Assembly: GCA_018657065.1 (NCBI GenBank)
Contig: JABHXU010000009.1
Location: forward strand, 1-64,000
Length of the DNA: 64,000 bases
Source: an archaeon
GTDB lineage: Archaea > Nanobdellota > Nanobdellia > Woesearchaeales > GW2011-AR15
Reading direction: 5' to 3'
Shown: positions 12,899-21,024 of the stretch, one piece after another
Layout of the letters: the number at the start of each line of letters is the position of its first letter
Numbering within the stretch: the first letter of the stretch is position 1
Notes under the pieces: generated by a model
The model's input: only the letters and a program-made list of their open reading frames with translations
Database searches by the model: none
What the model was told of the DNA's origin: nothing
Translations under genes and position numbers: made by a program

Positions 12899-13816
12899 AT
12901 GAAAAGAAAAATAATGAAGATTGCTGATACAACTTATGTAGTTTCTATTCCTTTGAAATGGGCGAGAAAACATGGAGTGCAAAAAGGGGACGAAGTTGAG
13001 GTTCAAGAAGGAGAATCAGAACTTAAAATCTCATTGTCAGACATAAAAGAACAAGTCAAAAAAGCACAAATTGAATTAAATCCAATTGGAACTAAAAGAT
13101 ATGTTGAAAGTAAAGTTGTTAATGCATACAAAAAAGGAGTAGATGAACTAACAATAAACTATTCTAATGTGTCTCAACTAGAACATATAAGAACTGCATT
13201 AGGTGAAGTAATAGGATATGAGATTATTGACACAAAAAAAGATAAATGCATTGTAAAAAATATTGCAAAAGTTGATCCTGATCAATTCGATCCAATGTTA
13301 AGGAGGTCATTTTTACTACTATTAAATATGTGTGAATCAAGTTTAGAAAATTATAAAAATAATATTTTGGATTTTGAAAATGTAAAACAAATGAATAATA
13401 CTTTAAAAAAATTAACAACTGTTTTAAAAAGGATATTAAACACTTCACATTCTAATTTTGAAGAAAAACTAACTCTGTATTTAATTGTTAGAGAAATTGA
13501 AAAAATTTCGAATGAGTATATGTATGCATTTAAAATTATAAGTAAAACAAAGTACTCTCTAAGTAAGAATGTTACTGAACTTTTTGAAAATGCAAATTCA
13601 ATGTTAAGATTATTTTATGAAATTTATTATAAAAAAGAGTTAAAAAAAATATCTGAACTTACAGACATAAAAAATAATTTAATTTGGAAAAAGTCATACA
13701 GTTTATTGAAAACTGAAAAAGAAAGTTCAATTATTGTTCATCATTTAGCTTCAGTTGTTAGGAGAGTTTATGATATGCATGGACCTTTTCTAATTATTGG
13801 ACAGAATCAAGACTAG
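12899..13816 (+). CDS. PhoU-like regulator with N-terminal AbrB/SpoVT domain
   Basis: 'MKRKIMKIADTTYVVSIPLKWARKHGVQKGDEVEVQEGESELKIS' followed by a helical PhoU-like region. Confidence 0.8.
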   Translation: MKRKIMKIADTTYVVSIPLKWARKHGVQKGDEVEVQEGESELKISLSDIKEQVKKAQIELNPIGTKRYVESKVVNAYKKGVDELTINYSNVSQLEHIRTALGEVIGYEIIDTKKDKCIVKNIAKVDPDQFDPMLRRSFLLLLNMCESSLENYKNNILDFENVKQMNNTLKKLTTVLKRILNTSHSNFEEKLTLYLIVREIEKISNEYMYAFKIISKTKYSLSKNVTELFENANSMLRLFYEIYYKKELKKISELTDIKNNLIWKKSYSLLKTEKESSIIVHHLASVVRRVYDMHGPFLIIGQNQD

Positions 13817-16472
13817 TTTGATATGCAATTTCTGCTCCACTTATTATTTGATCAAAAAACATAGTTGGATTTGATCCTTTGATTGAACCAAACATTAAAG
13901 GATGATTATAAACGTGATCAAAAATTGTTTGCTGGTCTTGTGGGCTAAGTGAACCAGTTTGAGTTTTTGTACCAAATACTCTTTTAATTCTAGTAAAATG
14001 TGCTCTATCCATTTGCTGAGTTATATACATTGTTTTTTCAAGTATTGAGGATTCATCATCAGAAAGTTGATATTTTTGAGTAGCATGTTCTATAAATCCA
14101 GGCCTACCATAGTCAATATCATCAAAATTTGGAAATGTATCTTGTCCATACTCTATAGTCATGGTGTTAATATCTGGTTTGTTTGGATTATGTGCATTAA
14201 AACCATTAAGATGTGAAACAAAAGCATAAAAAGATGAAACAGCCATTGATCTTCGTAACTCAGCTTCTCTAACAGCTCTATAAATTTCTATAAAACCAGC
14301 GTTAGGATTATTTGTTACAGTATTTAGCATATTTTTTGCTTCCATATTATGTATTTCAAATCCTGAAATCCATTCAGCTAACATATATGGAAAAATTTCA
14401 TGATCTGGAATATTATGTGACCTCATATATTCAGATCTAATCTGATGCAATAAGTCATCGTGAAGAGCAATATTTTCATTTGAGAGAGAGAAAACATCAA
14501 AATTGCCAGCAGTTAAATGATAATCTTTGTGTAAAAAAGATAATTCTAATAATGGATCTACATTTACTATTTCATCACCTAATTCAAATTCTGCGTTAGG
14601 TCTATCAAACGGAATTATTAGATTATCTGGTTTTGAATCACTTGACCAGACACTAAATCTATTAAAAAGTTTGGATCTAGGTTCTCTGCATAAAGTCATA
14701 TAATCAGCTACAAACTTAACGTCAAGAACAAGGTCTCCTTCAGAATCAGATCTTTCTAGATATCTAGCTTGTCTTAGTGCAGGATAATCTTCTACGATTG
14801 CTTGTCTTGTTTTAATGGGTAAACTCATGAAAAATTCATCTTCAGGCATGGAAAGTAATTTTTGAAATAAATCCTCTGATGCACTTGGAAGCTGTCCTTT
14901 TAGAATTGATTTTGCAACAATTCCATAATCTAGTGCTAAAATATATGCTTTTTCATCATCTGTCAATAATTCTTGGGATTGTGTATTTTCTTTTCCAATT
15001 TCAACAATAGCTCTAGAAAGATATTCTCTGGCTTGTTCTTGATCAACTGATATATCTATTCTTGATTCATACTGTTTTGTAGATAAACCAATTAATTCAC
15101 CTAAAGAAAAACCACTTATTTTTTCAAAAATAAGATAATCTTCACCAGTTTCTATTACTTCAGCAAATGAAAGTCCAGATTCACGGGCTTTTTTAATAAA
15201 ATTAGTTAAAATTGGAATCATCCTAGGAGAATGTCTTTCTTCTCCATTATATTCTTTGAAAACCTGTGATCTAAGTTCTTTTTTTGCGGTATCAAGATCA
15301 ACATTTAAAGCAACATAACATGCACGGCCATCCCCTAGAGGTGTCACTTCCATATGTGGTCCTTCATCAATTCTAACACCTAATTTTCCAGAATGGCCTG
15401 ATTTTCTATAAGTTACACCTTGATGTTTTGGACCTATAATATTGTATGGTCCCTTACTATGTGCGGCAGCTGCAAGCTTTAATAGAGGACTAGCGTCTTC
15501 CCATCTTTCTCTTGGAGGAGCCTCGTGAAATTTATTACCTTCTGTAGGTTTTAAGTTAGGATCTCTTATTAACGGTCGCGACATAATATGATCGTGATGA
15601 GCATTTTCAAACACATACAATTCTTCAGGAGAATCCCAAAGCATTGGAATATTTTGTTCTTGAGATATTTGAAACATTCCGGGTTCAACTGTAGTTGCTG
15701 TGTAAATTATATTTTCATCCCTAGGTACGGAATCTACGGCGTAATCCAATACATTAATTATCCTTTTTTTTGTTGAATCTAAATATGCAAATAAGTGTGA
15801 AAATGTTGAAAAATTATGTCCACCTGAAAATGTTTGTTCCCCAATTTGTATATCTTGATTATGTTCTGTTTGTAGTTCTTCATCACGCCAAGTAGTATAA
15901 GATTCAATGTCATAAAAACCCAAAGGTTTATTGTTTTCTATAGCCCATAACATATCTTTTGGAATGATCCAAGGAGATACAATTAATTGTGTTTCTTCAA
16001 ATTCCTGAATTTGCTCATAAACATGTGGGGGAGCAACTAGGAAACCTTCATGATATTGAAATATGTCTAGAGCAGCAAAATTTACTGCAAAAAATTGGGT
16101 ATCGGTTTGAGTAATGGTTGTATTTAGAAAATCTTTTTCCCAAGCAAAATAATCTTCTTTTTTATCCCATAATATAGGTAATTTTAGTTCTAATGCTTCT
16201 CGAGTACCGGGAGACCAAATTAGGCCATTTTCTTCAGGATGTAACCAAGGACTAAAATAAGTTTGCTCTCCTCCTGCAAGGATTACAGAATCATTATTTG
16301 GAGAAAGAACAGTAACATTATTGTCTTGCATAAACTTTTCTAAACTACTTTGATCTGCAAATACTAAAGCAGTATCAAAATTTGTCTGAGTTTTTTGTTC
16401 TAATCCCATTTTACTCTTGAGGAGTGATAATAGTATATAAATGTTTCTCTTTTTGTCACTAATAAGTAACAA
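13794..16472 (-). CDS. Large uncharacterised protein (up to 892 aa) with a possible divergent protein kinase/APH-like region
   Basis: 'VIETGEDYLIFEKISGFSLGELI' (hinge-like) and 'WSSDSKPDNLIIPFDRPNAEFELGDEIVNVDPLLELSF' (catalytic-loop/metal-loop-like). Confidence 0.7.
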   Translation of the reverse strand: MLLISDKKRNIYILLSLLKSKMGLEQKTQTNFDTALVFADQSSLEKFMQDNNVTVLSPNNDSVILAGGEQTYFSPWLHPEENGLIWSPGTREALELKLPILWDKKEDYFAWEKDFLNTTITQTDTQFFAVNFAALDIFQYHEGFLVAPPHVYEQIQEFEETQLIVSPWIIPKDMLWAIENNKPLGFYDIESYTTWRDEELQTEHNQDIQIGEQTFSGGHNFSTFSHLFAYLDSTKKRIINVLDYAVDSVPRDENIIYTATTVEPGMFQISQEQNIPMLWDSPEELYVFENAHHDHIMSRPLIRDPNLKPTEGNKFHEAPPRERWEDASPLLKLAAAAHSKGPYNIIGPKHQGVTYRKSGHSGKLGVRIDEGPHMEVTPLGDGRACYVALNVDLDTAKKELRSQVFKEYNGEERHSPRMIPILTNFIKKARESGLSFAEVIETGEDYLIFEKISGFSLGELIGLSTKQYESRIDISVDQEQAREYLSRAIVEIGKENTQSQELLTDDEKAYILALDYGIVAKSILKGQLPSASEDLFQKLLSMPEDEFFMSLPIKTRQAIVEDYPALRQARYLERSDSEGDLVLDVKFVADYMTLCREPRSKLFNRFSVWSSDSKPDNLIIPFDRPNAEFELGDEIVNVDPLLELSFLHKDYHLTAGNFDVFSLSNENIALHDDLLHQIRSEYMRSHNIPDHEIFPYMLAEWISGFEIHNMEAKNMLNTVTNNPNAGFIEIYRAVREAELRRSMAVSSFYAFVSHLNGFNAHNPNKPDINTMTIEYGQDTFPNFDDIDYGRPGFIEHATQKYQLSDDESSILEKTMYITQQMDRAHFTRIKRVFGTKTQTGSLSPQDQQTIFDHVYNHPLMFGSIKGSNPTMFFDQIISGAEIAYQTSLDSVQ

Positions 16473-17735: not shown

Positions 17736-18275
17736 GTGAAAATTGTGGATATAGGTAAAGTTCAAAGATTAAATCAAATGGCATTAAATTTACAAAAGCA
17801 TAATATTGTTTTAGATAAAAACGCGGCAATTGCAGATGCGCAAAAAATATTTGGTGTAGAAAATAATTATTCAAAAGAAGAGGTTGTACATATGACAGAC
17901 GATGTTCCTGATGAAGTTAAAAAAGATGTTAGAAAGATTGCGTTTGCATTACGTGACGCATTAAATGAAATAAAAGATTTAAAATCTCAAATGGGTAAAA
18001 TGCAACGAGAGTTTAATGATATTATTGTTAATCAAAAACCTACGAGACAAAAATTAACAACATCTCAGGAACAAGTTCAAGCTCAATCACAATTTCAGGC
18101 AATTGTTAATCCTGAACCAGAAAAGAGGCAAGAAGCACCAGTACAACAACAATCACAACCTGTTCAAAGAACTTTTAGTGAACCTCAAACAAAAATTGAG
18201 TGTCCTATAGACAGAAATAATGTAGCACCAGCAGATGTTGCTATTGACAAAATGTTTTATTATGGGAATAAGTAA
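17736..18275 (+). CDS. Hypothetical coiled-coil/Gln-rich protein (GTG start)
   Basis: ORF after 'aaaaaggtgaaa'; helical and low-complexity. Confidence 0.55.
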   Translation: MKIVDIGKVQRLNQMALNLQKHNIVLDKNAAIADAQKIFGVENNYSKEEVVHMTDDVPDEVKKDVRKIAFALRDALNEIKDLKSQMGKMQREFNDIIVNQKPTRQKLTTSQEQVQAQSQFQAIVNPEPEKRQEAPVQQQSQPVQRTFSEPQTKIECPIDRNNVAPADVAIDKMFYYGNK

Positions 18276-18318: not shown

Positions 18319-18346
18319 TCAAAGGGGCGCGAGGAACTGCGCATAA
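18319..18346 (+). repeat. GC-rich inverted repeat, left copy
   Basis: TCAAAGGGGCGCGAGGAACTGCGCATAA, matching the reverse complement of 20257-20284 at 26/28 positions. Confidence 0.9.
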
Positions 18347-18354
18347 TTATTTTT

Positions 18355-20223
18355 TTAATTCTTAATTTTTTTCTTAGTCAAATAAATAACAAGAATTAAA
18401 GCAATAATAAAATAACTTAGTAGGTAAATAACTTCAGTTTTTATTGTAGGAACATTAAAAATGAGTATTTTTCTAAATGCTGAACTAGCTATTACATAAG
18501 GATTTTTCGCAGCTATACTTGCTGCTAATTTAGGCATTGTTTCTAGAGGAGTTACTGAATTACTAAATAAGAAAAATCCAAGAGCAACAAATGTTGTTGT
18601 AAGAATTGAAGACTGTTCATTTCTAATTAATAATGCAAATATCATACCTATTGAACTAAACAGTAATACAAGTAAAAGAATAATAAAAATTAAAGGCCCA
18701 AATTGACTTAATATATCAATATTAAAACTAAATTTAGCAACAAGTAATAAAATAACCACTTGAAATAAAACAACAAAAATATTAGTTATCATAAGTCCAA
18801 TTGTAAAAATTAATTTATTTACTGGAGTAATTAAATTTCTATAAAATGCTGTTGAATTAATTTCACCAAGTGTTACAATATTTGCAAATAAAATACTAAT
18901 AAAAATAATAATAATTGTTAACATTCCTGGAAACGCTATTTTTATATTTTCTACACCAGGTAATAAAGGTTCATAATTCTCCATTATTGGATTAACTAAT
19001 TGTTCTGCTAATTCTGGATTTAATTTACTTAAATCTGCTAAACTAGAATTTAGTTCTTTTTGAACTAAAAGCATGCTAGCGACACCAGAATTAATTTTTA
19101 AAATATATTCATCACTGGCTTTTATATCAGCGTCAATTAATTTTTTAACAGTATCTAAAAGAGAAACAGCCGTATCAAATTCAGTTTTTTGTTCATCAAT
19201 ATAATTAAAATACGTTGTTGTTGAGTTTTGTAATTTTGTTGCAGAGTTTCTAAATAAACTAATAGAATCTAAAGATAATTCTAAAATTAATCCAGTTGAT
19301 AAATCTGAACTTAAATCTTTTAAATCAATAGATTGGTTAAATTCTGGAATAGAAATTGACTCATTAATTAAACTAAAATTTAAATCACTTAAATTATAAT
19401 ATGAAATATTTGCACTAACAAATTCACCAATATTTGTTGTAAATGTTTTGTTTGAAATATAGATTTTTTGACTTGGATATGTTAATTTTAAAATTTTAAG
19501 ATTGTTTTCTAAAACTTCTAAATTATCAAAAACTAATTCCATTGAAGAATCAAATTCATTATATGATTTATTTATTTCAATACTCAAATTATCAAGTTTT
19601 ATTTGAATATTTTTTATTTTATTGTAACTAGGTTCAAATTCTTTTTGAATAACAATTAATTTTTCTTTTCTTAAAATTAAATCATTTTTGATCGAATCAC
19701 TTTCATTAATTATAAAAGCAATATCTTGGTTTTTATCATATAAATAAACAACCATATTTTCAATATTTTGAAATATTGTTGTTGCTGAATCTAAACTAAT
19801 TTTATCAGCCTGTACTCCAAAAAAATCTGAAATTGTCTCAACAATTTTATTTGACAAAGCTTTTTTTGAATTATCAAAATAAAATATAATTGTTCCTGTT
19901 GGAATGTCTCCAGTTGTCATAAATTCTTCACTAAATTCTAAACAAATATGAACTTTTTCTAAAGCCATATCATTAATACAAGATTCAGGATTTTCATAAG
20001 AGATTACATCAGCAAAATAACTAAAATTAGAAAATGCTGGTTCAAGAGTATTAAAATCAGAACTGATTGCTCCAATATTAACACTATGAATTCCTTCACC
20101 ACTGTAAGCAAAACCTATAAGTAAAATTAAAGCTAAAGGTCCAATAACAAGCATTAGAAGTGAAGAAATATTTCTAAATAAAATCTTAAAATTTTTTATT
20201 TGCTCAAATAATAATTGTTTCAT
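18355..20223 (-). CDS. ABC-2 type transporter permease with large extracytoplasmic domain
   Basis: N-terminal TM, long soluble region, then C-terminal TM bundle 'FPGMLTIIIIFISILFANIVTLGEINSTAFYRNLITPVNKLIFTIG'. Confidence 0.9.
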   Translation of the reverse strand: MKQLLFEQIKNFKILFRNISSLLMLVIGPLALILLIGFAYSGEGIHSVNIGAISSDFNTLEPAFSNFSYFADVISYENPESCINDMALEKVHICLEFSEEFMTTGDIPTGTIIFYFDNSKKALSNKIVETISDFFGVQADKISLDSATTIFQNIENMVVYLYDKNQDIAFIINESDSIKNDLILRKEKLIVIQKEFEPSYNKIKNIQIKLDNLSIEINKSYNEFDSSMELVFDNLEVLENNLKILKLTYPSQKIYISNKTFTTNIGEFVSANISYYNLSDLNFSLINESISIPEFNQSIDLKDLSSDLSTGLILELSLDSISLFRNSATKLQNSTTTYFNYIDEQKTEFDTAVSLLDTVKKLIDADIKASDEYILKINSGVASMLLVQKELNSSLADLSKLNPELAEQLVNPIMENYEPLLPGVENIKIAFPGMLTIIIIFISILFANIVTLGEINSTAFYRNLITPVNKLIFTIGLMITNIFVVLFQVVILLLVAKFSFNIDILSQFGPLIFIILLLVLLFSSIGMIFALLIRNEQSSILTTTFVALGFFLFSNSVTPLETMPKLAASIAAKNPYVIASSAFRKILIFNVPTIKTEVIYLLSYFIIALILVIYLTKKKIKN

Positions 20224-20256
20224 TTTATTTTTGTTTTTCTGGTTTTTAAAATATTT

Positions 20257-20284
20257 TTATGCGCCGTTCCCCGCGCCCCTTTGA
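20257..20284 (-). repeat. GC-rich inverted repeat, right copy
   Basis: + strand TTATGCGCCGTTCCCCGCGCCCCTTTGA; reverse complement TCAAAGGGGCGCGGGGAACGGCGCATAA. Confidence 0.9.
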
Positions 20285-20319: not shown

Positions 20320-21024
20320 TTATTTAACAACTCTATCAAATTCTTTTCGTAAATCTACACCACGTTTAACAGTGACTGATTTAATTTTACCATTGTATAA
20401 AATTCCTGCTTTGTTACAGTTTTTTTCTAATTCAGAAAAAATATGTGATATAACTATTATTGTTTTACCTTCTTTACTAACTTCTTTAATAATTTTCCAA
20501 AATTGATCAACTAATTTAGGGTCTAGGCCAGTTGTGGGTTCATCTAAAATAAGTAATTCAGGATTATGAACAAGAGATATTGCAAAATCCAATCTTCGTT
20601 TCATTCCTCCTGAGATATTTTGTGCTAATTTGTCTTTTGAATCATATAAGTTTACAGATCTTAAAATTTTATTAATATGAACATCTAGATCTTTTTTATT
20701 CATTTGAACAGAATTTAAATTTGCATAATAATGCATATTTTCTTTAACTGTTAATTTATAATAAAAAGAATTTTCTTGAGTAGTAAGACCTGTTACTTTA
20801 AGTAAAAAATTTGAGTCTTTTAAAACTTCTTTTTCTTTAAAATAAATACTTCCTGATGTAGGTTTATAAATACCCATTAATACTTTCATTAAGGTTGATT
20901 TACCGGATCCAGATGGACCTATAATTCCAAAAATATCACCCTTACTAATTTTAAGATTAACATTATCTAAAATTTTTTTAGAACCAAAGGCTTTAGTTAT
21001 ATCTTTAAATTCAATTATATACAT
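20320..21024 (-). CDS. ABC transporter ATP-binding protein
   Basis: Walker A 'GPSGSGKST', signature 'NISGGMKRRLDFA', Walker B 'LLILDEPTTGLDP'. Confidence 0.95.
   Translation of the reverse strand: MYIIEFKDITKAFGSKKILDNVNLKISKGDIFGIIGPSGSGKSTLMKVLMGIYKPTSGSIYFKEKEVLKDSNFLLKVTGLTTQENSFYYKLTVKENMHYYANLNSVQMNKKDLDVHINKILRSVNLYDSKDKLAQNISGGMKRRLDFAISLVHNPELLILDEPTTGLDPKLVDQFWKIIKEVSKEGKTIIVISHIFSELEKNCNKAGILYNGKIKSVTVKRGVDLRKEFDRVVK

Follow-up and report, generated by a model that had tools for sequence, protein, structure and literature searches.

A REP-like hairpin repeat dispersed in an AT-rich archaeon shares its core with an intergenic repeat of Streptomyces

The inverted repeats at the permease locus

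The window analysed here is the first 64,000 nt of contig JABHXU010000009.1 (GenBank assembly GCA_018657065.1), from an archaeon of the Woesearchaeales. An ABC transporter ATPase gene is followed on the minus strand by an ABC-2 type permease gene, which converges with a plus-strand gene for a 179-aa protein (Table 1). Two copies of a short GC-rich repeat, A and B, flank the permease coding sequence in opposite orientation. Copy A lies 43 nt past the stop of the 179-aa protein gene, with the stop of the convergent permease gene 8 nt away; copy B lies 33 nt from the other end of the permease gene, inside the 96-nt spacer between ATPase and permease, and on the same strand as both genes. GC-rich inverted repeats flanking the permease were the core of the original prediction, and they are real: the copies match at 26/28 positions, and a search with the 28-mer at ≤3 mismatches returned two sites in the window (copies A and B) and 0 in 100 dinucleotide shuffles. 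The repeat sequence itself is far beyond chance. The DNA around it has a GC content of 24–26% (27.8% in a sample of the genome).

Table 1. Features of the permease locus and copies of the repeat. Coordinates without a prefix are window positions.
Feature	Coordinates	Strand	Description
892-aa protein	13794-16472		No Pfam match
179-aa protein gene	17736-18275	+	From ORF list; no Pfam match; 3' end followed by copy A
Copy A	18319-18346	+	TCAAAGGGGCGCGAGGAACTGCGCATAA; core GGGGCGCGAGGAACTGCGC at 18324-18342; hairpin GCGCG-AGGAAC-TGCGC at 18327-18342
ABC-2 type permease	18355-20223	-	622 aa; Pfam PF01061/PF12698; 42–50% identity to relatives
Copy B	20257-20284	-	TCAAAGGGGCGCGGGGAACGGCGCATAA; core GGGGCGCGGGGAACGGCGC at 20261-20279
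ABC transporter ATPase	20320-21024	-	234 aa; Pfam PF00005; 49–60% identity to relatives
Copy C1			94 nt past a gene
Copy C10			3 nt past thyA, 40 nt ahead of folA
Copy C11			Between divergent genes
Copy C12	gene pair at L029:6604-8612		Between groES and groEL
Copy C13:16073	gene at L030:5819-7096		Extreme 3' end of tRNA methylthiotransferase gene
Copy C13:103716			85 nt past dnaJ
Copy C13:161925			11 nt past a gene, convergent setting
Virus copy	L014:1840-1864		Intergenic; AAA-core-ATA

In all six relatives in which the ATPase was found, the permease adjoins it in the same order, and in five of these the gap between the genes is only −20 to +8 nt, compared with the 96 nt that contain copy B here. 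Because the adjacency holds in 6/6 relatives, the permease is, on this comparative evidence, the native operon partner of the ATPase and a mere bystander to the repeats, with copy B inside the operon. The repeats had been suggested to bound a mobilised cassette or an inversion switch that includes the permease. Two inverted copies do closely flank a single gene, and inverted REPs frame RAYT genes in other genomes (PMC2817692). However, the seven other copies in the genome (below) are solitary and the supposed cassette is not a unit that relatives lack. The bracketing is also weak evidence, because nine randomly placed copies produced an inverted pair within 1.94 kb in 4.5% of simulations. Phase inversion of the permease is unsupported, and we regard either form of this explanation as extremely improbable.

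A dispersed repeat at gene ends of the archaeal genome

The host genome (1.49 Mb in 25 contigs) carries the archaeal markers transcription factor IIB and a TIGR01578-type tRNA methylthiotransferase; its size and gene content suggest a DPANN-type lineage. Searching it with the 19-nt core, GGGGCGCG[GA]GGAAC[TG]GCGC, gave eight sites at ≤1 mismatch and one decayed copy; relative to GGGGCGCGNGGAACNGCGC, seven copies are exact, one has a single mismatch (C10) and one has two (C13:103716). The reversed pattern gave 0 matches in the same genome. With its flanks, the element spans ~27 nt and reads (C)AAAGGGGCGCG[GA]GGAAC[TG]GCGC[AC]TAA, i.e. (C)AAA-core-[AC]TAA. In a survey of repeated 20-mers and GC islands covering 856 kb of the 1.49 Mb, it was the only dispersed non-coding repeat seen and made up seven of the ten strongest GC islands. 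Two copies (L028:7693-7830 and L033:6616-6753) have ~110 nt of non-coding sequence in common that ends in the element (~72% identity over 81 nt); perhaps these belong to a longer unit or to a small RNA.

Each of the nine copies is intergenic or coincides with a gene's 3' end; eight follow a stop on their own strand by 3–94 nt or form the 3' end of a coding sequence. The seven copies added by the whole-genome search place the element at many unrelated gene ends, a pattern that the original prediction had set against its own reading. Contamination or an assembly chimera, also raised there, is unlikely given nine loci with different AT-rich flanks, only ~28 nt at each, and a further copy on a separate virus contig. 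The groES–groEL pair that holds one copy is of bacterial type, in an archaeon with transcription factor IIB.

Intrinsic terminators are likewise short GC-rich hairpins at gene ends, but the archaeal element is invariant in sequence and occurs inside operons, and copy A alone has a T-run behind it (mixed A/T elsewhere). Terminator-like sites in the region were as frequent as expected (1 observed versus 1.3). We rejected an intrinsic or generic terminator on the T-run and the operon copies; a terminator pair that sets the permease apart from the ATPase transcript is unlikely for the same reasons, with copies inside groES–groEL, thyA–folA and ATPase–permease.

Single-strand folding gave a GCGC/GCGC stem with the loop region G[GA]GGAAC[TG]. 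The C12 copy forms a stem of six pairs capped by a GGAA tetraloop, and the copy B hairpin is more stable than its shuffles (z ~ −3). Rfam returned no match at gathering score in the window or in the Streptomyces arrays described below; around the copies in the window, the virus and C11, its matches were weak and below threshold. Alternatively, selection could maintain the element as an RNA signal, a 3'-terminal hairpin of the message that would mark processing, stability or termination and be bound by a putative host RNA-binding factor. The stability of copy B, the invariant GNRA-type loop (GGAAC) and the position past stops in 8/9 copies are consistent with this. In codirectional gene pairs, moreover, 5/5 copies are in the sense orientation; an RNA role explains this more readily than random insertion, although the sample is too small for a firm conclusion (n = 5; two-sided p ~0.06). 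However, nothing can be read from sense orientation in convergent pairs, the genes on either side of C11 are divergent, and termination at the copies in groES–groEL and thyA–folA would split operons.

No copy of the core turned up in 60 relatives (two of them from the same genus), and a further 370 genomes of the phylum yielded nothing convincing (one variant in a GC-rich contig is chance-like). The suggestion that relatives might lack the repeats or the permease thus held for the repeats but not for the permease, which is kept in 6/6. Copy C13:16073 supplies the last seven codons and the stop (RGARNGA*) of the tRNA methylthiotransferase gene. The gene ends 10 codons past a DLR-like motif, while eight homologs end 2–9 codons past it with their own stops (same genus, 4). 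From sequence comparison, this gene end looks like what insertion of the element would leave, and we infer that the element entered this archaeal lineage recently and by insertion. A DGR/IMH was considered for this copy and rejected: it encodes residues at a gene end, but there is no upstream region common to all copies, and no reverse transcriptase (PF00078) was found in the archaeal genome, which is 95.65% complete, so that a missing gene is possible.

The same core in Streptomyces and on a virus contig

The original prediction had noted a resemblance to actinobacterial repeats, and this proved strongly supported. One scan of a genome collection, in which the [AC]TAA suffix was required, matched a single record, Streptomyces sp. 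ASQP_92. This genome has ~950 copies of the core at ≤1 mismatch (4 with the backwards control), and the archaeal core is its most frequent 19-mer in the 400 kb examined. The copies stand in arrays of 1–7 with ~40-nt spacers, the core conserved and the spacers variable. Across 118 genomes of the class, six (ASQP_92 counted) contain 17–891 exact copies, two contain singletons and the rest none; the repeat-rich actinomycete genomes are 8–10 Mb each. Among the plasmid records matched, 8/10 were from Streptomyces. The window variants GGGGCGCGAGGAACTGCGC and GGGGCGCGGGGAACGGCGC both occur verbatim in repeat-bearing actinomycete genomes. Two side observations concern ASQP_92: in its arrays (L073-L092), the core alternates with CCCGC-GCGGG-TTTT terminator-like hairpins, and the genome has a second abundant repeat, GGGGCTCCGCCCCAGACCC.

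The likeness extends to the pattern of variation. In both the archaeal copies and the Streptomyces GGGGCGCG family, the core is invariant except at positions 8 and 14. In ASQP_92, variation is appreciable only at these positions (G/A and T/C, respectively), and across the repeat-bearing genomes of the class position 14 is T, G or C. The Streptomyces intergenic repeat, GGGGCGCGGGGAACTGCGC, thus has an identical 19-nt core, variable positions in common, an intergenic location and a hairpin; it differs in reaching ~950 copies per genome in arrays, often between convergent genes, and in a downstream flank that is mostly GA rather than ATAA. Because core and variable positions are the same, the two repeats probably represent a single type of element, or else are targeted by a single recognition machinery, and we infer a probable common origin. 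The identity of the core is the most unexpected part of the finding. The scans of the genome collection, the phylum genomes and IMG/VR revealed no intermediate hosts apart from the virus contig below. In open-access text, we found no paper with the repeat sequence, and in open papers no published name for the Streptomyces repeat.

Could the identity be a coincidence, a convergence of two unrelated GC-rich hairpin repeats? GC-rich palindromes are constrained; with the palindrome granted, the chance of a random GC-rich sequence matching is ~2e-4 for this single comparison. Coincidence keeps some weight, because repeat families from many genera were available to be compared. Nevertheless, 17/17 fixed positions match, the same two positions vary (G/A; T/G/C), and both repeats are intergenic, downstream of genes, and the leading dispersed repeat of their own genome. 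We consider coincidence improbable.

In ASQP_92, 21/39 clusters lie between convergent genes. Of the codirectional cases, eight are in the same orientation as the genes and six in the opposite orientation, i.e. with no clear strand bias (from crude gene calls), which counts against an RNA signal. Among 141 Streptomyces copies the stem positions hardly vary, and the 8–13 pair is often broken (A–C, 16%). Because of this, it is the sequence itself that is retained, not the fold alone. The stem, being invariant rather than covarying, also lends the proposed RNA structure no separate support.

A 25-nt match, identical to copy B at 25/25 positions, was found on a 12.4-kb circular contig of a tailed virus (L014; IMGVR_UViG_3300035698_001374) with 37% GC, a 127-nt direct terminal repeat, and terminase and capsid-like genes. 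Both virus genes next to this copy run antisense to it, a point against a strict sense-RNA role; overall, we consider a selected RNA signal unlikely. Relaxed IMG/VR scans for more viral copies gave only chance-level matches in coding or GC-rich DNA, and none of the relatives of the virus spans the place of the element. We rejected a link to halovirus intergenic repeats, which are AT-rich promoters unrelated to the element.

One copy on a circular virus and nine in the host could also indicate a site-specific recombination site (att or Xer-like) at which a virus or plasmid integrates. Against this, no integrase was recognised among the virus genes examined, no provirus lies at any copy, nothing convincing is similar between virus and archaeal genome outside the element, and the element does not have an 11-6-11 Xer-type symmetry. 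We judge a recombination site very unlikely.

Nature and spread of the element

The element is REP-like, but it is not a REP. Like the GTAG and CGTC REPs, which are 20–40 bp, dispersed, extragenic, hairpin-forming and mostly downstream of genes (PMC3733652), it is a short extragenic hairpin repeat. It differs in its ends (AAAGGGG and GCGC[AC]TAA), which carry neither tag, and in the archaeon in its very low copy number, eight or nine where REPs exceed 100 per genome; ASQP_92, with ~950, does exceed it. The Y1/HUH transposase domain of RAYTs (PF01797) had no match in the archaeon (at the completeness given above, a missing gene is again possible) or in ASQP_92, and control genomes were positive. 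We rejected a RAYT-driven REP on this ground; CGTC REP families likewise are without a dedicated transposase (PMC3733652). The REP hosts named in that paper are bacterial phyla, and Streptomyces is not mentioned. MITEs are also small, non-autonomous, dispersed DNA, but the archaeal element, at ~28 nt, is without transposon terminal inverted repeats, and no parent transposon was seen.

Our preferred reading, to which we assign a probability of roughly 0.6, is that the repeats around the permease are two of ~9 copies of an untagged REP-like dispersed hairpin that was recently acquired and spread to intergenic and gene-end sites, and that is probably one element type with the Streptomyces repeat. 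The element would have entered the archaeal lineage recently and then been scattered by some factor, with copies surviving where coding sequence stays uninterrupted or little harm is done. Transcription would place a GCGC-stem hairpin, its loop GGAA (GNRA-type), at the 3' end of the upstream mRNA. If known REPs (PMC3733652) are a guide, its effect on mRNA 3' ends would probably be minor and fall short of strong termination. Several points stand against a REP-like insertion: nine copies are few beside the numbers in known REP families; the tag is missing; no mobiliser was identified, since neither a Y1 transposase (in the archaeon or ASQP_92) nor a reverse transcriptase (in the archaeon) was found; the five copies in codirectional pairs all point with the genes; and the two copies with ~110 nt in common may belong to something longer.

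More tentatively, Streptomyces, an AT-rich archaeon and a virus that possibly infects it may hold one sequence-specific element with its own putative recognition or copying machinery. Such a REP-like system would cross domains and do without a RAYT. Bacteria are the main source of known short extragenic hairpin repeats, and RAYT transposases are credited with their spread. In the present case, a repeat without a RAYT has an identical core in Streptomyces, whose leading intergenic repeat it is, and in an archaeon with ~28% GC. If this is one element, comparing the two lineages for common features could guide a search for its machinery, and laboratory strains of Streptomyces would allow the arrays to be tested.
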